Source of the DNA: a virus
Virus record (IMG/VR): IMGVR_UViG_3300021076_000190
Location: 1-32,802 of that record
DNA: 32,802 nt
Strand: one strand, 5' to 3'
Positions 3,788 to 32,802 of the stretch are shown piece after piece. Every line of letters begins with the position of its first letter. The stretch's first letter is position 1. The position numbers and the translations under genes were made by a program. Below the pieces are notes generated by a model that worked only from the letters and a program-made list of their open reading frames with translations, was not told the DNA's origin and ran no database searches.

Positions 3788-6700
3788 TCATTGTATAATC
3801 TGTCCCGGCCCTTGTTTCAAGAATATAGCTTGAGGTGTCTGGGCCCACCATAGACCGCCTAAAGAAACAACATCAACAGTTGGATTAGCAAGATTCCATA
3901 TAACATCATTTGAATCAGGTGGGAAATTTTGACCCAATTCGGCATACACATTGGTGGAGCTATCTGCTATATGGTCATCTGGTGCTGTTCCATTAGTCCC
4001 TCTTATCAATGTGCCAAATTCCCATACATTGCTTGAAATTTCAACTTTACTTCTATACTCAATTCTCTCGCCGCCAATCCATAATGCACCTGGTGTCGTA
4101 GTTGTCGGTGACTGAAATACATTCGGGGACTGAACCTGGAATGATGCAGTCGTTGGTGCTATAGCCGGGGTAGTTGGATTACCACTATGGTCTTTTCCAC
4201 TTAATAATACGCCGGCAACTGAATTATTATTTCTATAGAATGCAACATTACCTGATCCTGTATTTTCTTTAGAACTAATATAATATGGAAGATTAACAAT
4301 TAAATTAATTGAATCTTGATCCCAATAAGTGCTACTATCCCATCCGTATTCGATGCTATTTTCTGATAATATATTCTCAACTACTGGATCTGATAAATCC
4401 CAAGTTTGATTTATTATTGACATTCCGCCGCCAATTTGATTCACTACAAATTCAGTATCGACATTAATTACTAAATTATCTCTTGAAGATCCTGAAACAA
4501 TTTCATTTCTATAAGGATTAAATCCAAGTGTAGCAAAACTTCCACTATCAAATAACACATACGCAACCGGGGGTATTTGTGATGGATTAATAACAGTATT
4601 CATCGGATCACTATAGAAATATACAGTATAAGTATCATCGGTATTCAATTCAACATAATAATCCTTTCCATATAATAAAATTATATCTACAATTTGAATT
4701 GCTATTATATTTGTAGGAACCACAAATGGCATAGTTCCCAATAAGCTAAATGTATAAGGATATAATTGTGATGCACCTTTCTTACTTGGATCATAAGTAG
4801 TCAATGAAATTTGATAGATAGTTTCATCAGACACATATTGCTGAATTGTGGTTACAAAAGTTTCTGCGTCTAATACATTTCCATATAATCCTACCCAGGT
4901 TGGCATTCCAGAATCCCATCCATTAGTATCCCATAAATGACCCTCGGATGTATCAAGTTCAGTGTCCCACTCTGCTGGCCATTCATCGCCGCCACCAGGC
5001 CCAAATGATAGAGTAATTTGTTGATTTAGTGTATCAATCGCAGTTCCTTGTGCTAAATCTAAATTAGTATAGCTTTCTAAATAGTCTCTAATTTGAGTAT
5101 GGTAAGGCTTAACATCATTAATATATCCAATAATATTAGTAATCTCATCAGGCACATAGAATTTTGTCTGAGTCAATGGAATATCATTTTCTTTAATGTA
5201 AATATATGATGTTTTAAATACCCAATTTGGATTTTTTTGCTCACTTAACACATAATTTAACATTGAGAAAAATAATAGATTTGTGTCAACTAAATTACTT
5301 TCAACAAACACTTCAGTATATAATGCATACAGTATTTGTCTTAATTCAGTAGATAATTCATATATAAATTTATCAGTGTAAATGGTTGGCAATATTTGAA
5401 TGGCGCTTAATTCATATCCAATTAATTCTAAATAAAGAGAGTTTGCTGAACTATTTGCTACCACATATAATGCATATCTCTGATCAGCAACTACTGGTTC
5501 ACTTGTGCCTTGTATAACAATAACAATTTCATTCAGGGTTAAATCTCCGGCCAATAAGGCTGCATTAGCTTCGGCTAAGGTTTGATATTGAACTTGTGGT
5601 TTAACATTTGCGTATCCAGGAGCATACCAGTTTACATAGGTCCAATAGTTGTCAGTTAATATATTATCATTCCATCCCGGGTTTGTATCACGAATAGGTA
5701 TGTTCAATAATAATGCATTTACTGCCTGATAGAAAATTTTTCTTGCGGCGTAAATATTTCGGAACATACCTTGTCTTGGACGATATTGAACACCATATTT
5801 TTCAGCATCACTTAATGATGGATCTGGAACAGGGAATATTTTTCCATAAACTGGAATTGTGCTCGAAGTGGCATCATCCCACGGTGAAATATCCCAGGGT
5901 GCAGTGTCCCATGGATTAAAATTACCAATTATAATGCCGTTACTATAATTATCAGACACTGGCAATACGTCTGTGTAGCCACAAATACTATCGACAAATT
6001 TATTCCAATAACCTACAGGTATTAATGAGTTTACATCATTTTCTCTATATAATCCCCATTGGGTATGTTTTTGGTCGTCTCTTTGTGATGTTCTATATTG
6101 AACTTGAACATTGTTTCCTTGATAAATTAATATGTCTTGAACATTATAAAATAGGTAAGAGTTATTTATACTAGTTTGTTGGATAGGCGCAAAATATGTA
6201 TAACCCTGAGTATTTGGATTAGTTAATAAATTTGAAACCTGAATCGCAGGTAATGTTCTATTCTGTAAGTTTGGCTGATTGGTAGTATTTAAAACCCAGA
6301 AATAATAAAGTGTTACAAAAATATTGGTTGCTGAATTAAAAGTTGTTATCTGAACTGCATCAGATGTCGATCTCGGTGTCCCAGGTCCAGTATATTGATC
6401 CGGCGTAACAGTGCTTTCAACCCATTCATAGATGTCTATTGATGAGCCTGGAAATAATTGACCCCAATTATTTCTTATATAGACTAAGTTATCAGTTGAA
6501 GTCTCCGATCCATCTAACGCAATTGGTTGTTCATAATAAAAATATCGGCAATTTGTAAAATCCCACCACAATTGACCCACTTGCGTTGGTCCAAAAGTTA
6601 TACTCGAACTATATAATCTTGGATTCGAAGTAATATTATATCTTGCAGGATCCTGAAATGAAAAATATGTAATATTTTGTCTGGCCAAGTTTGGTAATAT

Positions 6701-9700
6701 ACCTCTAAATGGATCATACACGGGTAGCAATATTTCCTGCAACTCTGTTTTAAATTGATAAATTTGTGCATTCAAGAACAATGAAGTATCAATTAATGGC
6801 TCTTGCTCCCTATATAAAGTTGGAACAGTTGCACTGATGCTATTTAAAGAAATAGTGTAAACTCCCCATTTACTATTCGGATCGATATCAATCCACACTT
6901 TATCATTATTTTCAACATAATATGGAAAAGTTGATGGCAAAGTCATAAATCTCATTGACTTGAAAACCAATAATGAATTTATAAATTGATATTCTGCTAA
7001 TTGTGTAGAGTCTAATGGATTTCCAGAACTATCTAATAATGAATAATTATTCCAAGTTAATACTACATTATATGTATTCGAATCCAGTGAATCGTCAACA
7101 ATAGTCACTTGCTGAGTAGTCACACTTGTCCCGAGCGACTGTAATGATACCAGGTAGGAATAAATTGGTTCCGGGGAGCCTGTCACTACATATTGTAATG
7201 ATACTAGATTAATATCATTGGCTGCTATCAGATCAATACCAATAACACTCAATATTAAATTACCGGATGAATCAGTATTAAATACAAATCCTTGATCCCA
7301 TAGTGTTACTTCATTATTTGTGATAGGAATTGATGGATCAACGGCAAATATTGTATCCCACGGCTGATCTTCATCGATAAATGGCGGTTGTAAAAATTGG
7401 TCCCAACGACTTTGAGCAATAGTAGCATCATAGGAAACTAACTTATAAATACCCCAGTCTAAATTCGAATTACTAGCAATCCATACTGTCTGACCTTCAA
7501 TAGGGTTTAATACTGGTGTATTCCAATTTGTAAAGGCAGAATTGAAATTAAAAGTTAGCCAAGTTACATCATTTCGGTTAGCATATCCTGCATTTGGAAT
7601 ATCATAATAAATGTTGTCAGTTGTAGGAAATACTAATGTGTATTCTGGCTCTGGCGGCCTTACAGTCCACACATTAGTTTCATCAATATCAATATCAATA
7701 ATATTATTTACAGGAGTATCATTAATTATTTCACCTTGATAGATTGAATATAATATATCAAGATTTGAAGGAGCCGACCCTGCATTTATTGTCACTAATG
7801 GATCATAAGTATATCCATATCCTGGGTCAGAAATATCAATTCTTGCTATCGTACCAGTAGAGGAATTTAATATTGCGTAAGCAGTTGCCTGTCTAATCGG
7901 ATATAACAATCTTGGATCGTCTGGCGACACATCTGGTGCGCCGATAATAATCAATGGTGGAGTTGTGTAACTATTCTGAGCATTTAAAATATAAATGCTT
8001 TGAACAAATCCTATTACATTCGGAACATAATTTAATCTTGCGACAATTACATTACCAGCATTTGGTATTGGTTCCAAAATAAATTCAGTTGAGACTTGTT
8101 GAATTGTATTACCAAATTCGCCAAGCAATAATGCCCATTCTTCGTATATGCTTACAGATTCGTTAGTGGTAACATTATTAAAATTACCAAACGCAGTATT
8201 ACATCTGAATAATTTATCAAATGACTGAATTGTCCCTTTTTGTCTAATAGCGCCTTGATAAAATAGATATTGAATATCGTTACTTAATTCTAAGTTATCT
8301 AAATAATCAATATTCTGAAATCCAATTAGGTGTCTAGCTAATGCTTCTGCACTTGGATTATCAATTTGAACATTTGGGTCATAGAAATATCTAATGTTAT
8401 CCACTAATGTGTTGTAATTTGGCAGTAATTGGTTATCCAGAATAATATAACCAGGTGCTTCCATTTTTCCATACCAATTACCACTTCTGAAACCATTGAA
8501 TAATAATCTTAACTGTCTTGATTGTAACAATGGATCATAAATTATATCATTAAAATCAGTTTCATTATCAAATATTAATATGTGTTCTATTTCAATTGCG
8601 CTAACTTGTAAATAGAAAATTCCACCGGCAGTTAAATCACTTGGTGTTACAGTAATTGTCTGCCCGCTTCTATTTATGGTTGTTTCAGATGGACTAATAG
8701 CAACACCATATTGGTTTAATATGCTATATACGCCATTTGATATTTTTTCTACATTATCAGGATACCCTTGAGCGACTGTGATTGATGCTACATTTGCCAA
8801 TGGACTAAGTTGAATTGATGCATCTGGTGCCCAACTCGAATTAATCCAAAACAAGAATTGTTTTGCAGAATATAACCAATCACTAATCATCGAAGTTGTA
8901 GGATCAACAACTGTAAAATCCCAACCTTGGGCAGATAAGAAATCTCCCCATCCAATTAAGAAATCAAACACGGCCTGCACATTCGCTAACACAGTCCCGT
9001 ATTGGATTTTCATTATTGTAGTCGAAGGATTTGGGTTATAAGATACTGTCACTCCACCAACAGTTGGTAATGCACCCAATTTTGTCCATAATAATGCATT
9101 AAAGGATGAAACATTTACTTGAGCATAATTACTCTCATAATACGCACCATTGTATCTTACTATATTGCCAGGATTATATGATGCACCAGTTTGAAAATAC
9201 GTCCAGGTTGCAGGTTGTCCACCTATAGTAATTTGTTGCGAACTACCAGGCTGACGAGTGTAAATAGTAAATTCTGAATTTACTAAATCGTACCCATAAA
9301 CTGCGAATGTTCCATTCGCTAATGCTCTTATTATCACGCCACTATAGGAATATGTCGCAATCGGGTTGCTTGTATGTAAGTCAACTTCGAAATTATTCAA
9401 TGGCACTGAGAGACTGGTGCTACTTGTGCCTGGAGAAACAGATTCGAGATAAACAGTGCATGTTGATTGGTTTGTGAATCCTGCAAATTTATTAGCAAGA
9501 TTCACATCTAGTGTTCGAATTTTTTGTCCAAAATACTGAGTTATATCTTCGCCTAAGTATAATAGATAATCACTAATCCATCTTTGGTATCCGAATCTTA
9601 TGGTAATAGTCCCGTCCGGTAATGTTTCTGCATGAACAATCTGATCAGAATTCTTTGGTCTCATCCAGGAAAAATACGGGTCGCCAGAACCTATAGCACC

Positions 9701-12700
9701 ATTTTGAAAATAATCATCAACTTGAACATAAAAATCATAAGGAAGATATGTGCTATTTTGAACATATTGGCCACTTGGCATATATTCAGTTCCAATGGTA
9801 TCCCAATATAATTCACCAAATTGTGATGGATTCATTAAGTATAAAAATTCCTGAACACTAAATGGGTAATCAGAGCTATTATACCATGCCTGTTCCACTG
9901 GAGATCCATCACCATACACCCATGGATCCATAAATCCTTCAAATGGTTCATAATTACTTGCTACTGCGACATTGAATATGGTTGGAACAGGTCTTATATT
10001 TCCGGCACTATCCACGGGGATGATTGATGATAAACCAGGTCTAGCCCATAATTCATTCGGTAATGGGTCCATTGTCACTGGATCAATAATTGCTCGAGGA
10101 CCTTGTCTAATAATACCTGCTTGTAAATCATTCCACAATCCAGTATTAGTCGAGCTCCAATTTGACCCATATTGTGTTATCCACCAACTCGGCATTTGTG
10201 AAAATCCCAACATTTCCCATGGATTTGTGTCTGGATAAATGGTATCATAATACCAATAAAAAATTCCTCTCCAATTACCTGGAAGATTTAATGGAACATC
10301 ACTAACATTTACGGCAGAAGTATAATTCCATAGCATCCATTGCTGACCAGAAGGCACCAATAGTGAAAATGTAGAATACTCATTTTGGCGATAATCAACA
10401 CCATACTTTGCAGACCATTTATTTAAATATGATTCGGTGATTGACAAATATTCTTGTCGTGGGTATCTCGTTTCTCTAAAATATCCAGGTTTGATTTGTG
10501 CTAAATCTAAAGGAATGTTATATTGATTTCTAAATAAGAAATTTATACCATTGAATATGCGTTTTTCAAGTTCAAGTAATAATTGATCTCTATAATCGCC
10601 AAATACAACTGTTCTTGATCCATCGTGGCCGACTATAACATTTGTAGGAATTGCGTATGATGTATCTAATACAATTTGTGGTTCATATGTCATATATGTT
10701 CCAATTTTACTTGGTGTAGAAGGAACATATGTAGGTAGTGGATTTTGATAAAATTCAACAAATATCGAATCACCAACATCGACACTATTAAGATTGAATA
10801 CTACTGTAATAGGTGAAGAGGTTGTTGGCTGAGTAAGCAAATAATCATAACCAATTAATAATAATCTTTCATCGCCGGGTGCTGAACCAGTGGTATCATA
10901 GAAATAGATGATATTTCTTGGATCGGAAGTGTCAATGTAAGTGTTTAATTGTAAAGGCAATGAATACCCAGAATTATGTGGATCGACTGCTGGAACAATG
11001 TCTGATTCGGATGCGAACACTGCACTAGCTGCAACCATAAATGAATATGCGAATGAATTTGAAAATTCTTTAGAAATATTCAATATAGCAAATATTTGAT
11101 CTACCCAATAACTAATTACAACTTCATTATTTTGAATTTGAGCAGGTGTAAATTTTTGGTTTATTAATTGCTTTGCGGTATTTAAATATTTCGTTTTAAA
11201 ATTAGTGTATTGTAGTTCACTAAATCTCACCGAATTAATAATATCCAAATCATCTGCTGATGAAATTAACATTGTTTTTAATAATGGTGCGTTATTTTGT
11301 AGAATAAAAGATCCTAAAGAAATATTCTGTGGACTATCTTTATAGTTATTAGTTCCGCCATACGCAGTTCCAGTAAAGCCAAATTGATTTTGAATGATTG
11401 ATACAAATTGCTCACTTAAGTCACTACCGGAAATAGAAAATATTTCCTGTTGATTTGGATTAGCACTTAATTGTTGAGGTATTTCAAAATACCCTGGTGC
11501 CGCAGATTTTAATGGTGCATGAGTATAGGTCTGCACTTCAACAACTGGTGGTGGCGATCCTGGTGGCAATGAAGCAATATATGGTGTTAAATATGAAGAC
11601 AAATCTAGATATACATTTCCATTTATCTCTCTTGCAATAACATAATTAGCAATACTGATTATTGTTCCATCTACAATTACAGTTATGTCGGAACATCCTT
11701 CATCATATCCATATGGTATTACACTTAATTCGAATATGTATAATTGGTCCAATGATACATTAAATTGCGGCCCTACTGAATTATAGCCAACTACATATTG
11801 ATCAATTACTCGTTGTTTACTTGTATATACTGGTGTAACTGTAGAACAAGCACCAGTGGAAGGAATTGTCGGCTCGTATGGATTCCATGCATTTCCATAT
11901 GTGGCAGGAACATCGTCATATCCTAAACTCTTATAATAATAGTATCCATATATTGGATACTGCCCGTTATTATAAGTATATCTCTCAGTCATCAAGTCAT
12001 TATCAAATAGAATATCAGTAGCCTGACCTAATCCAGTATACACAATAGGAAACCCTAAAATTGGATCTACAAATGCACCGGGTTCTGTGTTAATCTGATA
12101 CGAGAATATTTCACTGCCAGCAAAATTATTATTCGGATATACACTTGGATCATTTAGTCTTACAAAATTATAATCAAATAATTGAAACAATGGCGGCTGA
12201 TTTGATTTGTATTTGTCATTATCGACTTCCTGCCAGGTCCCATATTGATAATACCAAGTTTCGCCTGCTAATGGTGTTTTTGCTATTCCAGAACTTTCAG
12301 TAATAAGAACTATATCACCAGGCAATACTGGTGTAGAAAAATTAGTGTATGGTAAAAATAATGCTAAATTATCTGTAGTGCTCACTACTTGAAAAATATA
12401 TTGATTTACAATATTAGTTTCGACATCACTTGTATCCCACACACCGACTACATATACAATTCCGGTTTCTGGATCAATTATCAAATCATTTGGTAAATCG
12501 TCTGGATTTAAGCCTGCAGAACTGATATCTGTTTCCATAACAAAGTCCCATGGAGCGACATCCCATTCTGGCTGGTCTAATGTAATTCCATTACTGTCAT
12601 TAAAGAAAACAACAAGGTCACCAGGCATTAAACTTATTAAAAGATTATCATTAATAAGAGTAAATGGCTGTAATTGATACGTTGATAATTCAACTGATGC

Positions 12701-13750
12701 ATTATTTTGATCAATTGTGAATCCATAATTTATATCTGATCTAAATTGTGTTCCAGCATCAAATAATTCTAGGTCAGCGTTAAATTGTATAATTGGTCGA
12801 GATGCTCTGATAGCACCACTAGGCCAAGTGGTATTTGTTAATCCAATTGTTGCGTTAATTACATCCACACTATACCATTTATTTGTTCTAGACCAGGCAT
12901 TCTGATCTAATGAACTACGATCAATTGTAATGTAATCACCCGTGCTGGCTACTGCCTGAACATCCCAAGGTAACTGATCCCACTTTGTGTTGTTTATGGT
13001 GGTGCCATTTGATAACTGAAATGTGCCATCCCATGGTAAAAATTGAAATTGGCCTCTTGCTGTATAATCTGGATAGTCAGGCACTAAACGAATGCCACCA
13101 GGAATTCCAATATTATCTACGGTATGTGGCTGTAGATAATTTGAATCCTGTGTTAATATAATTCTCATTCCAGTCTGCAATGTTAAATTTGGAGGAATTG
13201 CGGTCGAAGGAGTAGTATAGGAATTCAGACCTAATATATCAGATGCTAGGATAGGAGAATGCCCAGTGCCACCAGTTATTGATATTGCAGGAATTCGCTG
13301 CTCAACCCAGTAATAATTTTGATAATTTACAAACATATCAACATTAATTGGTGGACACCAGCTATAATATTTTGACTCAAATAATCTATCTTGATTTGAA
13401 ATATCACTTCCATAATACTTAAGCTGATTCAACAAATCTTCATAGAAGAAAATATTATCTCTTATATTATTAACATCACGAACATATGACGTCGGTTCCA
13501 ATTGCCAAACAGTTCGGTCTTTAGTAGGTTCCGAAACATAGTAATCAGAAATAGGATTATAATAACCACTAGCTCGTTCACCAAGATAACCAGTAATTAA
13601 TTCACTCTGATCTTGACTAAAAACTTGATCAAATGTGGCATCAAAGAACTGTTTTTCAGTCTCTGTTTGGAATACACCTGGCAAGAATTTAATATAACTA
13701 TTTTCTTGACTCAAATTACTTTGGTTAATTGGTTGTCCTGAATTTGCCAT
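3788..13750 (-). CDS. Giant structural (baseplate or tail) protein, 3320 aa
   Basis: One uninterrupted frame of 3320 codons. It opens with a KFLPGVFQTETEKQFFDATF segment (about residues 22-41) like that which starts very large structural proteins in T4-like marine phages. The body is rich in Asn, Tyr, Thr and Trp. It holds several Trp-Asp-rich stretches: WDQLPWD near 256, PWDTAPWDISPWDD near 2612, and WDTELDTSEGHLWDTNGWD near 2927. A short carbohydrate-binding-like module with conserved Trp and Tyr lies near 1510-1555 (pattern Y-x2-G-x2-V-x-Y-x-G-x-Y-Y-E). It stands 9 bases downstream of gp6 and is probably part of the baseplate periphery. Despite its length I found no in-frame CGG. The exact subunit identity is uncertain. 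Confidence 0.8.
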   Translation of the reverse strand: MANSGQPINQSNLSQENSYIKFLPGVFQTETEKQFFDATFDQVFSQDQSELITGYLGERASGYYNPISDYYVSEPTKDRTVWQLEPTSYVRDVNNIRDNIFFYEDLLNQLKYYGSDISNQDRLFESKYYSWCPPINVDMFVNYQNYYWVEQRIPAISITGGTGHSPILASDILGLNSYTTPSTAIPPNLTLQTGMRIILTQDSNYLQPHTVDNIGIPGGIRLVPDYPDYTARGQFQFLPWDGTFQLSNGTTINNTKWDQLPWDVQAVASTGDYITIDRSSLDQNAWSRTNKWYSVDVINATIGLTNTTWPSGAIRASRPIIQFNADLELFDAGTQFRSDINYGFTIDQNNASVELSTYQLQPFTLINDNLLISLMPGDLVVFFNDSNGITLDQPEWDVAPWDFVMETDISSAGLNPDDLPNDLIIDPETGIVYVVGVWDTSDVETNIVNQYIFQVVSTTDNLALFLPYTNFSTPVLPGDIVLITESSGIAKTPLAGETWYYQYGTWQEVDNDKYKSNQPPLFQLFDYNFVRLNDPSVYPNNNFAGSEIFSYQINTEPGAFVDPILGFPIVYTGLGQATDILFDNDLMTERYTYNNGQYPIYGYYYYKSLGYDDVPATYGNAWNPYEPTIPSTGACSTVTPVYTSKQRVIDQYVVGYNSVGPQFNVSLDQLYIFELSVIPYGYDEGCSDITVIVDGTIISIANYVIAREINGNVYLDLSSYLTPYIASLPPGSPPPVVEVQTYTHAPLKSAAPGYFEIPQQLSANPNQQEIFSISGSDLSEQFVSIIQNQFGFTGTAYGGTNNYKDSPQNISLGSFILQNNAPLLKTMLISSADDLDIINSVRFSELQYTNFKTKYLNTAKQLINQKFTPAQIQNNEVVISYWVDQIFAILNISKEFSNSFAYSFMVAASAVFASESDIVPAVDPHNSGYSLPLQLNTYIDTSDPRNIIYFYDTTGSAPGDERLLLIGYDYLLTQPTTSSPITVVFNLNSVDVGDSIFVEFYQNPLPTYVPSTPSKIGTYMTYEPQIVLDTSYAIPTNVIVGHDGSRTVVFGDYRDQLLLELEKRIFNGINFLFRNQYNIPLDLAQIKPGYFRETRYPRQEYLSITESYLNKWSAKYGVDYRQNEYSTFSLLVPSGQQWMLWNYTSAVNVSDVPLNLPGNWRGIFYWYYDTIYPDTNPWEMLGFSQMPSWWITQYGSNWSSTNTGLWNDLQAGIIRQGPRAIIDPVTMDPLPNELWARPGLSSIIPVDSAGNIRPVPTIFNVAVASNYEPFEGFMDPWVYGDGSPVEQAWYNSSDYPFSVQEFLYLMNPSQFGELYWDTIGTEYMPSGQYVQNSTYLPYDFYVQVDDYFQNGAIGSGDPYFSWMRPKNSDQIVHAETLPDGTITIRFGYQRWISDYLLYLGEDITQYFGQKIRTLDVNLANKFAGFTNQSTCTVYLESVSPGTSSTSLSVPLNNFEVDLHTSNPIATYSYSGVIIRALANGTFAVYGYDLVNSEFTIYTRQPGSSQQITIGGQPATWTYFQTGASYNPGNIVRYNGAYYESNYAQVNVSSFNALLWTKLGALPTVGGVTVSYNPNPSTTIMKIQYGTVLANVQAVFDFLIGWGDFLSAQGWDFTVVDPTTSMISDWLYSAKQFLFWINSSWAPDASIQLSPLANVASITVAQGYPDNVEKISNGVYSILNQYGVAISPSETTINRSGQTITVTPSDLTAGGIFYLQVSAIEIEHILIFDNETDFNDIIYDPLLQSRQLRLLFNGFRSGNWYGKMEAPGYIILDNQLLPNYNTLVDNIRYFYDPNVQIDNPSAEALARHLIGFQNIDYLDNLELSNDIQYLFYQGAIRQKGTIQSFDKLFRCNTAFGNFNNVTTNESVSIYEEWALLLGEFGNTIQQVSTEFILEPIPNAGNVIVARLNYVPNVIGFVQSIYILNAQNSYTTPPLIIIGAPDVSPDDPRLLYPIRQATAYAILNSSTGTIARIDISDPGYGYTYDPLVTINAGSAPSNLDILYSIYQGEIINDTPVNNIIDIDIDETNVWTVRPPEPEYTLVFPTTDNIYYDIPNAGYANRNDVTWLTFNFNSAFTNWNTPVLNPIEGQTVWIASNSNLDWGIYKLVSYDATIAQSRWDQFLQPPFIDEDQPWDTIFAVDPSIPITNNEVTLWDQGFVFNTDSSGNLILSVIGIDLIAANDINLVSLQYVVTGSPEPIYSYLVSLQSLGTSVTTQQVTIVDDSLDSNTYNVVLTWNNYSLLDSSGNPLDSTQLAEYQFINSLLVFKSMRFMTLPSTFPYYVENNDKVWIDIDPNSKWGVYTISLNSISATVPTLYREQEPLIDTSLFLNAQIYQFKTELQEILLPVYDPFRGILPNLARQNITYFSFQDPARYNITSNPRLYSSSITFGPTQVGQLWWDFTNCRYFYYEQPIALDGSETSTDNLVYIRNNWGQLFPGSSIDIYEWVESTVTPDQYTGPGTPRSTSDAVQITTFNSATNIFVTLYYFWVLNTTNQPNLQNRTLPAIQVSNLLTNPNTQGYTYFAPIQQTSINNSYLFYNVQDILIYQGNNVQVQYRTSQRDDQKHTQWGLYRENDVNSLIPVGYWNKFVDSICGYTDVLPVSDNYSNGIIIGNFNPWDTAPWDISPWDDATSSTIPVYGKIFPVPDPSLSDAEKYGVQYRPRQGMFRNIYAARKIFYQAVNALLLNIPIRDTNPGWNDNILTDNYWTYVNWYAPGYANVKPQVQYQTLAEANAALLAGDLTLNEIVIVIQGTSEPVVADQRYALYVVANSSANSLYLELIGYELSAIQILPTIYTDKFIYELSTELRQILYALYTEVFVESNLVDTNLLFFSMLNYVLSEQKNPNWVFKTSYIYIKENDIPLTQTKFYVPDEITNIIGYINDVKPYHTQIRDYLESYTNLDLAQGTAIDTLNQQITLSFGPGGGDEWPAEWDTELDTSEGHLWDTNGWDSGMPTWVGLYGNVLDAETFVTTIQQYVSDETIYQISLTTYDPSKKGASQLYPYTFSLLGTMPFVVPTNIIAIQIVDIILLYGKDYYVELNTDDTYTVYFYSDPMNTVINPSQIPPVAYVLFDSGSFATLGFNPYRNEIVSGSSRDNLVINVDTEFVVNQIGGGMSIINQTWDLSDPVVENILSENSIEYGWDSSTYWDQDSINLIVNLPYYISSKENTGSGNVAFYRNNNSVAGVLLSGKDHSGNPTTPAIAPTTASFQVQSPNVFQSPTTTTPGALWIGGERIEYRSKVEISSNVWEFGTLIRGTNGTAPDDHIADSSTNVYAELGQNFPPDSNDVIWNLANPTVDVVSLGGLWWAQTPQAIFLKQGPGQIIQ

Positions 13751-28227: not shown

Positions 28228-28763
28228 ATGACTACTGAAAAAGAATTTAACTCAAGTGAGAATCCAGAATTAGCAATGCCGTTTTTTAATGAATTATGGC
28301 CAAAGGCTTATCCATTATATAGTAAAATACCATTAGCCACAGAAGTTGCAAGAAAATTTGTAGATGATGGTGTTATTACTATTGGTGGATTGTTAGAGAG
28401 ATCGATAGCAAAGGCTGGCCGGCTTAGTTCGAACGCCGACTATGGGTAAAGATTTCAGTGATTTATCAGATGCAAAAAGCATAACAGTGAGAACTTGCCG
28501 GTTATGGTAAACATTATGCAGCACCAGTCACTAATATTCATAATAAAAAAGGATATCTTAGAGTTATGTGTTTTGAGAGAAAATATAATAAATTTTATTA
28601 TTTCTTTATTCCATACTCTTCATATGCTCATATCCCCAAGACAAGTAATATAGAAATACCTTTCGAACTAGATGGCACACCAAGAAGAAAAAATAAATGT
28701 AAGATAAATTGGTGGAGTCACGAAGTTAAATCGTTTGAGGAAATTTGTCAACCGATTCCGTAG
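28228..28763 (+). CDS. Unknown phage protein, possible nuclease fold, needs two +1 shifts
   Basis: The first frame stops after 73 codons. Skipping the C of CGGC (28420) and of CGGT (28499) gives a continuous 177-aa protein. Around the first site it reads LLERSIAKAGGLVRTPTMGK, then FSDLSDAKSITVR (about residues 76-88), and after the second site CGYGKHYAAP, KKGYLRVMCFER, FYYFFIPYSSYAH and WWSHEVKSFEE. The DxSDAK stretch could be the D...(D/E)xK core of a restriction-like nuclease, but this is weak. It follows gp46 by 17 bases in the same operon, so a job in DNA processing is plausible. The 3' end overlaps the convergent nuclease gene by 38 bases. Confidence 0.7.
28420..28423 (+). other. CGGC +1 shift site (Gly65 of the 28228 gene)
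   Basis: The frame reads GCT GGC CGG CTT and stops seven codons later. Dropping one C gives GCT GGC GGC TTA GTT CGA and a frame open to the second site. Confidence 0.8.
28499..28502 (+). other. CGGT +1 shift site (Gly91 of the 28228 gene)
   Basis: The frame reads ACT TGC CGG TTA TGG TAA. Dropping one C gives ACT TGC GGT TAT GGT AAA CAT, and the frame runs to the stop at 28763. Confidence 0.82.
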
Positions 28764-29257
28764 CATATTTTTTCATATTATCTATATTGCTGGGATGATT
28801 CCAAAAATCATCCCAGCTTGTAAATATCCAATCTTTATAATTAATAGAAATTTTAGTTGTAAATAAATTAGCATCCTCATATAAGACCCACTTCCCTTGA
28901 TTATTGATTTTTATAAAAATAATATTCAGATCTCCAGTATTACAGGTTTCTTTAACTTGTTCTATCCACTTATCTAATAGTTTTACTTCTCCAGTAAATA
29001 ATTGATGATACGGAAATGCACCGATAAGATTTGCATTCGACATTAAAATATTTCCAATTATCTGGTGGGTGGATATCTCCCTTCTTACTCTGGATTTGCG
29101 CATCATCAAGTAAGGCTTTTCGTATATTATTTTTTCCACCGAACAAATGCACCGGCTTGACGGAATTCTTAAAAAAGAAGCGTCAAATGTTTTGCTTAAA
29201 AATTCAGCAATTTCACGTTCAAAACGATTGCCGTTTACTCTTACTTGGGCTTGGCAT
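28726..29257 (-). CDS. PD-(D/E)XK nuclease, resolvase-like, needs four +1 shifts
   Basis: The best start is the ATG at 29257: AAGGA lies nine bases before it and GATAAATA 26 bases before it. Reading +1 at CGGC (29230), CGGT (29151), CGGT (29138) and CGGT (29020) gives 175 aa. It opens MPSPSKSKGNRFEREIAEF, then IPSSGAFVGGKNN (31-43), KGDIHPPDNW (58-67), NVECKSYGAFPYHQLF (71-86) and LLDKWIEQVK. Asp60 and Glu73-x-Lys75 form a PD-(D/E)XK active site, as in Holliday-junction-resolvase-like and related phage nucleases. An unshifted frame from 29331 to 28726 is open for 201 codons but replaces the whole catalytic core with unrelated residues, because its last three shifts total three bases. The gene converges on the 28228 gene with a 38-base overlap. 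Confidence 0.82.
29020..29023 (-). other. CGGT +1 shift site (Gly78 of the nuclease)
   Basis: Reads AAA TCT TAT CGG TGC; dropping the C gives TCT TAT GGT GCA TTT, right after the ExK catalytic motif. Its downstream bases (CGGTGCATTT) match those of the site at 29151. Confidence 0.85.
29138..29141 (-). other. CGGT +1 shift site (Gly39 of the nuclease)
   Basis: Reads TTT GTT CGG TGG; dropping the C gives TTT GTT GGT GGA AAA, restoring the VGGKN segment. It is four codons after the site at 29151. Confidence 0.87.
29151..29154 (-). other. CGGT +1 shift site (Gly35 of the nuclease)
   Basis: Reads TCA AGC CGG TGC; dropping one C gives TCA AGC GGT GCA TTT, restoring the PSSGAF segment typical of this nuclease group. 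Confidence 0.87.
29230..29233 (-). other. CGGC +1 shift site (Gly9 of the nuclease)
   Basis: From the ATG at 29257 the frame reads AGT AAA CGG CAA and stops four codons after CGG. Dropping the C gives AGT AAA GGC AAT CGT TTT, the KGNRFERE opening usual for this type of nuclease. If translation instead starts at 29307 this site is not needed. Confidence 0.75.
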
Positions 29258-29282
29258 TTCTTATTTTCCTTAATTGTATTAG

Positions 29283-29290
29283 TATTTATC
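29283..29290 (-). promoter_or_regulatory. Late promoter motif GATAAATA before the nuclease gene
   Basis: Exact GATAAATA 26 bases before the ATG at 29257, followed by AAGGA at 29267-29271. The spacing matches the other copies in the window and supports the 29257 start over one at 29307. Confidence 0.55.
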
Positions 29291-29313
29291 TGTTCAGAAA
29301 TGGTCATAAAACC

Positions 29314-29580
29314 AAAAGGAATCAGATACACGACGCCGACTTTCTTCGGAAATTAGTGCGTATAAAAGGAATCAGATATAGGTTACCAAAAGGAATCAGA
29401 TACACGACGCCGACTTTCTTCAAAAGGAATCAGATACAACGACAAAAACCACGGTTTTTAATCAAAAGGAATCAGATACAAAAGGAATCAGATACAATGG
29501 CAGAAATCAGTCAAAAGGAATCAGATACAATGGCAGAAAACCATGGTTTTTCGCTTGGAAACCACCAAAAGGAATCAGAC
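29314..29580 (+). repeat. Eight iteron-like direct repeats, candidate replication origin
   Basis: AAAAGGAATCAGATAC occurs at 29314, 29388, 29422, 29464, 29480 and 29513, with a final T in place of C at 29364 and a shorter copy ending AGAC at 29567. All share AAAAGGAATCAGA in the same direction, with start-to-start spacing from 16 to 54 bases. Two copies carry the same 18-base extension (ACGACGCCGACTTTCTTC, at 29328 and 29402). Between copies lie a perfect palindrome AAAACCATGGTTTT (29537-29550) and a similar AAAACC-A-CGGTTTT (29445-29457). Iterons upstream of an AT-rich tract and a replication-type gene are the layout of many plasmid origins. Most of the 458-base stretch from 29258 to 29715 consists of this and the AT-rich tract. 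Confidence 0.7.
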
Positions 29581-29581
29581 G

Positions 29582-29690
29582 AGTACCTATATATAATCTA
29601 TATTTATTATATATTATATATCCTATTAGTAAAAAGAAAATAAAAATATTTATATTTTTAAAAAAATATCTGTAGTATTTCTTAATAAAT
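29582..29690. other. AT-rich tract next to the iterons
   Basis: More than 100 bases with very little G or C, mostly alternating TATATA and runs of A, lie between the last iteron and the promoter of the 505-aa gene. It could be the unwinding element of an origin. I see no gene in it. Confidence 0.5.
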
Positions 29691-29692
29691 TA

Positions 29693-29701
29693 TGTTATAA
29701 T
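29693..29701 (+). promoter_or_regulatory. Extended -10 promoter before the 505-aa gene
   Basis: TGTTATAAT is a perfect -10 hexamer with the TG extension, the same nonamer as in the gp55 promoter. No good -35 is seen at 17 bases. The ATG follows 14 bases later with a weak AGGT as ribosome binding site. Confidence 0.55.
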
Positions 29702-29715
29702 GAGCAGGTAAATAA

Positions 29716-31233
29716 ATGGACAACGCAATGTTATTAAACCAATTAAAATATAAATTAATTAAACGATTCCCAGAAATGAAATCGTTTATAGCCGAGAGAA
29801 TATGTTCGAAATATATAAATGAAGTAATAATTGAAATCGCTACACAAATAATTTTAATGACTCCTGCACAAAGAAAAACAGGAGAAATGCCATTTAATTG
29901 GGATAATGTTCGTGAAAGATGTGGCAGAACAAATTACCCTACTAAAAATACTGATATACTAAATTTAATGCAAGATAACACAGATCATACAACATCACTC
30001 ATAATTAGAATGTTCAAAGGTAATCTTGGAAAATATAGTCGAGTTGTTTATAATCTTAATTATTGGAATGATATAATGGATGAATTAAATAAAATAGATA
30101 TAAAAAAATTAACAATACCATATTTACAAGAATTAGAAGATAAATCTAATGCTGATTGGGATATTGATGTAGAATCACTAAGATCATATATTTCAAAAAC
30201 AGAATCAGATTTACAAGCAAGAGGTCATAGTCAAAATTATTATGAAAAATTAACAAATAATTTGTTATTGAGTAAAAAATTATTATATTCATACAAAATT
30301 GATAAAGATGGCACTCATTATGTAAGTGAATATTGGGAAGAAATTGATAGTGGTAGAATTTATGGCCACGGACTTAGTTTACAAATTCTTCCAAAAGAAG
30401 TTAGAAATGCAGCATTAGGACATTGTTACAAATATGATTTTAAAGCTTGTTCATATGCAGTGATGGCATCACTTGCTAAAAAAATTGATCCATCACTAAA
30501 AATTGGTGCTGTAATAGAATATATACAACACAGAAATGATGTAAGACAAAATATAGCTCAGTGTATAGCTCTTGAATCTGACTCAATCTCTTGGGTAGTT
30601 GAGCAAGTTAAGGAAGTATTTACAGCCTATGGGTTTGGTGCAGAATTAAATAGTAATCCTTATAAATCAATCCATAAGAGATTAGGCGAAGATCGATTTC
30701 AAAAATTAATGCACAATGATAATTTTAATTATATTATTACGGGTATGAAAGAAATTAATAGAGCAATTGATTCTGCTTATCCTAACTCTGAATTTGTATT
30801 ATGTGGTAGAAAATATTCACCAATTAATCCTAAATACGATTCAACAATGCCAGAGAGAGGAAAGAATAAGCAAATAAGGGATAATAAAAAGAAATTGGCG
30901 TGGATCTTTCAGTGTATGGAAGCTGATGTAACTTCAAAATTTGTTAATTACATTAACAATCTAGGAACTCATAATATCAAATTAATATGCCACGATTGTG
31001 TATATGTGGATAAGCCTTTAAATTCATTTCAACAAGCAGATATGAAATGGATGTTAAGAAATGAATATGCCTATATAGATTTTGAAGAGACTATAATCTA
31101 TCCTATTCACGCAGAAAGCGATAAACCAGTTAATTTAGAAAAGGAAGCACAAATTGCACATAGTGAATTTATTCAACTTGAAGAATTAATTGCTGCCGAT
31201 TATATCAGTGAATTAATCAAGAAGGACATATAG
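29716..31233 (+). CDS. Putative replication protein with a polymerase-palm-like core
   Basis: 505 aa. I do not recognise it as a T4 gene. Three segments look like the motifs of family-A-type polymerases: GHCYKYDFKACSYAVMASLA (235-254, Asp241) for motif A, WIFQCMEADVTSKF (396-409) for the helix before motif C, and IKLICHDCVYVDKP (421-434, His426-Asp427) for motif C. A GRIYGHGLSLQILPKEVR segment (213-230) precedes motif A, as in small phage and plasmid polymerases or initiators. The N-terminal 130 residues may hold a DNA-binding domain (residues 61-100, NWDNVRERCGRTNYP). Directly upstream are eight iterons, an AT-rich tract and its own promoter, which suggests that it acts at that origin. It has no in-frame CGG. 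A plasmid-like module captured by the phage is possible. Confidence 0.55.
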   Translation: MDNAMLLNQLKYKLIKRFPEMKSFIAERICSKYINEVIIEIATQIILMTPAQRKTGEMPFNWDNVRERCGRTNYPTKNTDILNLMQDNTDHTTSLIIRMFKGNLGKYSRVVYNLNYWNDIMDELNKIDIKKLTIPYLQELEDKSNADWDIDVESLRSYISKTESDLQARGHSQNYYEKLTNNLLLSKKLLYSYKIDKDGTHYVSEYWEEIDSGRIYGHGLSLQILPKEVRNAALGHCYKYDFKACSYAVMASLAKKIDPSLKIGAVIEYIQHRNDVRQNIAQCIALESDSISWVVEQVKEVFTAYGFGAELNSNPYKSIHKRLGEDRFQKLMHNDNFNYIITGMKEINRAIDSAYPNSEFVLCGRKYSPINPKYDSTMPERGKNKQIRDNKKKLAWIFQCMEADVTSKFVNYINNLGTHNIKLICHDCVYVDKPLNSFQQADMKWMLRNEYAYIDFEETIIYPIHAESDKPVNLEKEAQIAHSEFIQLEELIAADYISELIKKDI

Positions 31234-31294
31234 TATTCTTATAGATTCGTTTAATTAATTTTTTGATATCTGGATTAGTTTCTAACAGTGAACT

Positions 31295-31329
31295 ACCGCG
31301 CAGCTAAAGCAACGCGGTTTTACGCGCGG
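31295..31329. terminator. GC-rich hairpin between convergent genes
   Basis: ACCGCG (31295) pairs with CGCGGT (31313), followed by TTTTA on the plus strand. CCGCGC (31296) can instead pair with GCGCGG (31324). The two stems exclude each other. The element fills the 99-base gap between the 505-aa gene (ends 31233) and the 43-aa gene (ends 31333), so a terminator is likely. It is strikingly GC-rich for this region. Confidence 0.5.
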
Positions 31330-31332
31330 GTG

Positions 31333-31464
31333 TTATAAACTCCATTTGATATTTTGAGAATCAAATAATCTTGATGCATCATATACCCAATTATGTTTTG
31401 GATACAGATACCAGCAATCGACATCATTTAGCGGTATCTTTATATCTATCGATTGCTTATCCAT
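31333..31464 (-). CDS. Small 43-aa conserved-type phage protein
   Basis: 43 aa: MDKQSIDIKIPLNDVDCWYL, then YPKHNWVYDASRLFDSQNIK and WSL. The CWxLYPxHxWVYDxSRLxDxQxIxWS pattern resembles a small protein I recall among T4-like marine phages near gp26 and the baseplate genes. No function is known to me. It starts six bases after the stop of the gp51-like gene. ORF finders with a higher length limit would miss it. Confidence 0.6.
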   Translation of the reverse strand: MDKQSIDIKIPLNDVDCWYLYPKHNWVYDASRLFDSQNIKWSL

Positions 31465-31470
31465 TTTTTA

Positions 31471-32608: not shown

Positions 32609-32802
32609 TTATGTATGTCTATACCAATCACGGTATGGATATTTACTTAAGATTATTGGTTCGGCTTCTGGCCAGCGCCCTTGAATCACATTCATTGCAT
32701 ACGAATATGCAGGCCCGGGTTCTGTCATTATATATGGTTCAGCTTCCGGCCATCGTCCTTTGATTACCTGATAGGTATACCAATATGCCGCTTGCGGGTC
32801 TT
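32609..32802 (-). CDS. C-terminus of a GRWPEAEP-repeat protein
   Basis: Only the last 64 codons lie in the window. Two tandem copies of a unit of about 27 residues are seen: AYWYTYQVIKGRWPEAEPYI and AYSYAMNVIQGRWPEAEPII, followed by LSKYPYRDWYRHT. Such A-x-x-YA-x-x-VI-x-GRWPEAE repeats are frequent in proteins of unknown function in large T4-like phages. No role can be assigned. There is no in-frame CGG in the part seen. Confidence 0.7.
   Translation of the reverse strand, partial: DPQAAYWYTYQVIKGRWPEAEPYIMTEPGPAYSYAMNVIQGRWPEAEPIILSKYPYRDWYRHT

Follow-up and report, generated by a model that had tools for sequence, protein, structure and literature searches.

Closest described systems

Polymerases of the TV-Pol family (Iyer, Abhiman and Aravind 2008, PMC2579912; e.g. 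Ma-LMM01, Sputnik) have an A-family polymerase core of about 500 amino acids (aa) with two catalytic aspartates and a conserved arginine on a hairpin, are carried by mobile elements, and are already known in one large myovirus. In the staphylococcal cassette SCCmec, the polymerase CCPol, which has been placed among the TV-Pols, acts as a primase together with a partner protein, MP; its preferred start sites lie in an origin of direct repeats to which the Cch2 helicase binds (PMC7581432). Related pairs of a polymerase and a single-stranded DNA-binding protein (Pol-SSB pairs) have also been described (PMC10061031). Here we analyse virus record IMGVR_UViG_3300021076_000190 (32,802 nucleotides (nt), hereafter the window), in which an array of eight direct repeats and an AT-rich tract precede the gene for a 505-aa TV-Pol-like polymerase. 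We give an even chance to the reading that this is a replication module of mobile-element type, captured by a T4-like jumbo phage and working as an origin.

The module shares the above features of the TV-Pol family, but adds the eight-copy array and the AT tract and is without an adjacent recombinase or D5 helicase; gp030 of Ma-LMM01, in contrast, has no such array. With the SCCmec system it has in common an A-family polymerase of mobile-element type, here a putative primase, tied to short repeats that here form a candidate origin. However, neither an MP/SSB gene (an OB-fold SSB) nor a Cch2 helicase gene was seen adjacent, the repeats, which here precede the gene, differ in position as well as in sequence and number, and the carrier is a phage instead of a cassette. 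The nearest plasmid relatives of the polymerase, annotated as hypothetical or Clp-like, are encoded by Polaromonas pW9NP1 and pH8NP1 (PMC6015842; 26-30% identity over part of the length), where, unlike in the window, a RepA_C initiator is also encoded and the polymerase is preceded by a ~125-aa gene, weakly DUF669-like in pH8NP1. Iteron origins of phages and satellites (PLE RepA, PMC7145576; phage P1 RepA) likewise join direct repeats to a linked replication gene, but there the initiating role falls to Rep proteins and not to a polymerase. The combination seen here, in which a T4-like jumbo phage carries a TV-Pol-like polymerase of mobile-element type together with an iteron-like array, is unusual.

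The 505-aa polymerase

An earlier note on this DNA had proposed that a replication-type gene, possibly a Rep initiator, adjoins the repeats. The first part of this proposal agrees with our data. The best Foldseek match of the predicted model of the 505-aa protein (mean predicted local distance difference test score, pLDDT, 62.7; better over about residues 140-355) was the A-family DNA polymerase Bst Pol I (E 1.2e-5), and comparison of the model with Pol theta in VIA gave Z 14.1 with a root-mean-square deviation of 5.1 over 278 residues (span 143-456), the Z values for Klenow and T7 DNA polymerase being similar. Matches in the viral structure library included uncharacterised proteins of phages and the replication protein of the Zamilon virophage. 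Invariant across 14-15 aligned relatives are SGRxY, Asp241 of motif A, the KxxxxxxxYGA helix and His426-Asp427 (HD(G)) of motif C. The predicted fold is therefore that of an A-family (Pol I/T7-type) polymerase, and conservation of Asp241, Asp427 and Arg214 agrees with the TV-Pol core of palm, fingers and thumb, in which two aspartates bind metal and an arginine contacts the template. As to the RxxxK motif of the TV-Pol fingers, Arg277 (invariant) and Lys299 (near-invariant) stand 22 residues apart, and no literal RxxxK precedes YGA; gp030 likewise has none there.

The Rep part of the proposal did not hold. Searches of Pfam, NCBIfam and PHROGs gave the protein no name and no Rep domain, and searches of PDB sequences with the protein and with the family profile returned nothing relevant. 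That the locus is an iteron origin of the strict plasmid kind, served by a Rep-family initiator, is accordingly very improbable, although array, AT tract and adjacent replication gene conform to that layout: these searches show no Rep domain in the protein next to the array, its fold is that of a polymerase, and in the related Polaromonas plasmids RepA_C is encoded separately. Equally improbable is a T7-like RNA polymerase with the repeats as its promoters. In structure the protein matches DNA polymerases at E near 1e-5, mitochondrial RNA polymerase being a weak Foldseek match (E 0.25), and the repeats stand before no other gene in the 32.8-kb window or in a 38.8-kb contig identical to it.

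Known relatives of the polymerase are rare, comprising two Polaromonas plasmids, twelve bacterial-genome contigs (mostly Burkholderiales), one virus-classed contig that matches a Simplicispira locus, and one sister phage, designated L064; the sequence relatives reside on plasmids and other likely mobile elements. The family is also rare in the order of Simplicispira, since 399 genomes yielded only the member already known, and the phage collection gave no match either by near-identity DNA search or by tblastn of the 505-aa protein. When the family profile was run against 50 kb of Microcystis phage Ma-LMM01, gp030 was the sole significant open reading frame (ORF; E 4.8e-7), and gp030 in turn matched Polaromonas pH8NP1 (E 2e-4). 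Ma-LMM01 carries a TV-Pol element according to Iyer et al. (PMC2579912), and we take gp030, which adjoins transposases, to be the TV-Pol meant there, judging from its size, its position by the transposase and the profile match. On this basis the 505-aa protein is called TV-Pol-like, being related by sequence, through gp030, to the TV-Pol group of mobile-element primase-polymerases. In three Burkholderiales loci (L018 1384-4049; L010, pW9NP1; L011, pH8NP1) the polymerase is preceded by a ~125-aa gene with weak, sub-threshold DUF669 similarity in two of the three cases; from its sequence, this gene may encode an SSB partner, i.e. a Pol-SSB pair outside Bacillota.

Repeat array, AT tract and promoter

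The eight direct repeats reported in the earlier note are exact copies of AAAAGGAATCAGA, all on the plus strand, starting at 29314, 29364, 29388, 29422, 29464, 29480, 29513 and 29567. No further copy was found in the rest of the window, and AAAAGGANTCA occurs at no other site across the identical 38.8-kb contig; when the window was simulated 200 times with an order-2 model, no 13-mer exceeded three copies. The extension of one repeat is indeed duplicated, but over 21 nt past the 13-mer rather than the 18 first described. Both AAAACC..GGTTTT palindromes were recovered, one perfect (one of three perfect 14-nt palindromes in the window) and one near-perfect, and AAACCNNGGTTT is restricted to these two sites. 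The AT tract, as had been suggested, stands out in that it contains the 100 nt with the highest AT content in the window (91% AT, about 29594-29702), and several direct repeats thus lie beside an AT-rich tract as in iteron plasmid origins. The expected promoter is represented by an extended -10, TGTTATAAT, which a simple -35/-10 scan did not pick up; its equivalent is kept in L064. Because L064 has TGCTATACT at the same place, the polymerase start at 29728 (501 aa), which aligns with L064 8477, is probably the true one. Single-strand folding of the array was not clearly better than that of shuffles (z -1.33), Rfam and tRNA scans gave no matches, and GC skew, offered earlier as a check, follows gene direction and is uninformative. 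Coordinates are collected in Table 1.

Table 1. Features of the module and of its edges in the window.
Feature	Coordinates	Strand	Basis or remark
PDDEXK nuclease, divergent left-edge neighbour	28726..29307	-	Domain matches; occurs in relatives
37-nt exact duplication (29311-29347 = 29385-29421)	29311..29421	+	Repeat plus 21-nt extension past 13-mer
Eight exact AAAAGGAATCAGA direct repeats, iteron-like array	29314..29579	+	Irregular spacing; three diverged repeats in L064
Near-palindrome AAAACCACGGTTTTT, imperfect centre	29445..29459	.	Read from sequence
Perfect palindrome AAAACCATGGTTTT	29537..29550	.	Left half GAAAACCA(C/T)GG also kept in L064
Junction CAAAAGGAxTCAxACGAGTACCTATATATA, last repeat into AT tract	29564..29596	+	Alignment; common to L064
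AT tract, candidate unwinding element	29580..29715	.	85% AT overall; AT tract in L064 too
Extended -10 promoter TGTTATAAT, predicted for polymerase gene	29693..29701	+	Read from sequence; TGCTATACT at matching L064 position
505-aa TV-Pol-like A-family polymerase gene	29716..31233	+	Alignments, structure match, profile search
Broken remnant of 191-aa gene, right edge of replacement	31232..31467	-	Comparison with relatives

Two copies of AAAAGGAATCAGA, 22 nt apart, are also present in each of two other viral contigs (L013, reverse strand, 66-100; L014, 7587-7621), where they precede a large protein with a CDYDSD motif, which we take to resemble a YonO/crAss-type RNA polymerase. As the family profile misses the CDYDSD protein, these shared pairs were set aside as coincidence.

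Sister phage L064

L064 is the nearest relative of the window (flanking proteins 70-88% identical) and the only one among its phage relatives with the module. It has three diverged repeats, TCAAAAGGACTCA, the same repeat/AT-tract junction, the AT tract, the extended -10 and a polymerase with 71% identity, the module being kept as a unit; the remaining intergenic DNA is mostly diverged between the two phages. Repeat words that changed under a constant layout are what would be expected if a cognate binder reads them.

The foremost competing explanation is that the region is a control region and not an origin, the repeats being operators for the divergent nuclease and polymerase genes. The array occupies the gap between these genes, beginning 7 nt from the nuclease start codon (29307), with the conserved extended -10 downstream of it; its irregular spacing fits operators, and L064 has a further set of 17-nt repeats, TGCGATATAATGTCGCA, in this region. 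Eight 13-bp sites across 266 bp together with a long 85% AT tract nevertheless exceed what operators usually need, and the strongest conservation falls where the repeats run into the AT tract, some 110 bp away from the -10, so that this explanation, while deserving attention, seems rather unlikely.

The TGCGATATAATGTCGCA family of L064 (8123-8203) consists of two exact copies and a partial one at 32-nt spacing, and TATAAT lies within a short inverted repeat in the same region. At L064 4731-7523, sbcD and sbcC are split over several frames and the nuclease ORF is short; either the contig has indel errors here or these genes are decaying.

Gain of the module at a backbone slot

In relatives the gene order is sbcD, sbcC, nuclease, endolysin (GH108), 191-aa gene and hub. 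All 23 syntenic relatives, defined as those whose contigs span sbcC to the hub, carry the endolysin gene and a near-full-length 191-aa gene, and none of the 23 has the repeat array or a polymerase of the 505-aa type. The earlier note had named conservation at this place in all related phages, with no replication bias, as a sign against its reading; the module is instead confined to the window and L064. The PDDEXK nuclease belongs to the phage backbone, since relatives have it too. In the window, meanwhile, the endolysin gene is missing from its slot and the 191-aa gene is reduced to an N-terminal piece (31467-31339, ~46 codons) and a C-terminal piece (31279-31232, ~16 codons), the latter overlapped by the 3' end of the polymerase gene. 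Between these pieces, ~110 codons of the 191-aa gene have given way to a hairpin, GC-rich and flanked by TAACA/TGTTA (about 31296-31329), whose sequence at about 31300 was not matched exactly by anything in viral_contigs. The loss of the endolysin and the fragmentation of the 191-aa gene indicate that the module replaced backbone DNA, and on sequence comparison it is a real, acquired unit. Of the captured replicon first envisaged, the acquisition, the replication-type character and the mobile-element relatives therefore stand, but not the plasmid Rep.

Least probable of all the explanations is that the assembly has wrongly fused a plasmid with a phage. The window and the identical contig are both metagenome assemblies, the latter stopping at 30082, and the right junction rests on the window assembly plus synteny. 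That separate record is, however, 100% identical across the left junction, L064, a different phage, shows the same order, and phage genes in conserved order, including the 191-aa gene remnants, lie on both sides.

It is also improbable, if less so, that the locus is a selfish TV-Pol mobile element whose repeats are recombination ends for its own movement, the phage being a mere carrier. TV-Pols often accompany resolvases, integrases or transposases (PMC2579912), and the gain removed one gene and broke another. Yet the module is not separated from the flanking phage genes by any ORF of at least 60 aa, so that no recombinase adjoins it, the right edge has no matching repeats, and in L064 the module sits by the same sbcC-nuclease block and has diverged along with it.

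Carrier phage

In agreement with the earlier note, the carrier is a T4-like phage and, by its gene content, a jumbo phage: T4_baseplate and SbcC/SbcD matches occur among the window proteins in a gene order conserved with jumbo phages. Relatives of the hub and of SbcC are found in the T4-like jumbo phages PA5oct (hub 39% identical) and Atu_ph07 and in contigs of 363-385 kb; a peptide-pattern search for hub relatives in viral_contigs found none. PolB is present in four relatives (three of them 363-385 kb in size, the fourth 210 kb), and none of the six relatives searched has a polymerase of the 505-aa family.

Among the baseplate and tail genes of the window, positions 3788-13750 of the minus strand form a single, unusually long ORF of 3320 aa. 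A 'WPEAEP' repeat protein is encoded at the contig ends of both the window (32609-32800, minus strand) and L064 (10010-10086, minus strand), and repeats of this type may explain why the assemblies stop there.

Proposed function

In the working that we favour, an initiator, be it a partner helicase or the N-terminal part (~135 residues) of the 505-aa protein, would bind the direct repeats, the adjoining AT tract would open, the TV-Pol-like polymerase would make primers on the exposed strand, and the phage PolB replicase would extend them. Priming of this kind has its precedent in SCCmec, where CCPol together with MP primes DNA. With the promoter placed between array and gene, binding to the array could also tune expression of the gene. 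Origin use, repeat binding, melting and priming at the module are all steps that we infer.

Several observations weigh against this working. Textbook iterons have regular, helically phased spacing, whereas the spacings here (50, 24, 34, 42, 16, 33, 54) follow no regular pattern and do not keep helical phase. The polymerase has no gene for an SSB partner or a helicase beside it, the neighbours being the PDDEXK nuclease and baseplate genes, and the N-terminal domain (~135-140 residues) is predicted at pLDDT 48.7, too poor for a structure search. Comparable repeats are absent upstream of the Polaromonas plasmid relatives and of gp030, so that they are not a trait of the family and, as far as seen, the array is peculiar to these phages. 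Finally, only two phage types have the module, and a single metagenome, IMG 3300021083, supplied contigs of both.

More tentatively, and with somewhat less than even confidence, we suggest that besides PolB replication the jumbo phage has a self-contained second origin with a TV-Pol-like primase-polymerase, whose repeat recognition drifts between sisters in the manner of plasmid compatibility groups. If the module is an origin, a large T4-like phage took in the priming system of a mobile element beside its own replisome, losing an endolysin gene; if the kit works as its parts suggest, the phage would have a second route to start DNA copying. With their diverged repeats, the two sisters would allow a direct look at whether repeat recognition resides in the polymerase (or its N-terminal part) and at whether co-infecting phages owe their compatibility to modules of this kind. 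A landmark at the DNA level, the repeat array with its AT tract, is thereby added to a polymerase family with almost no biochemistry.
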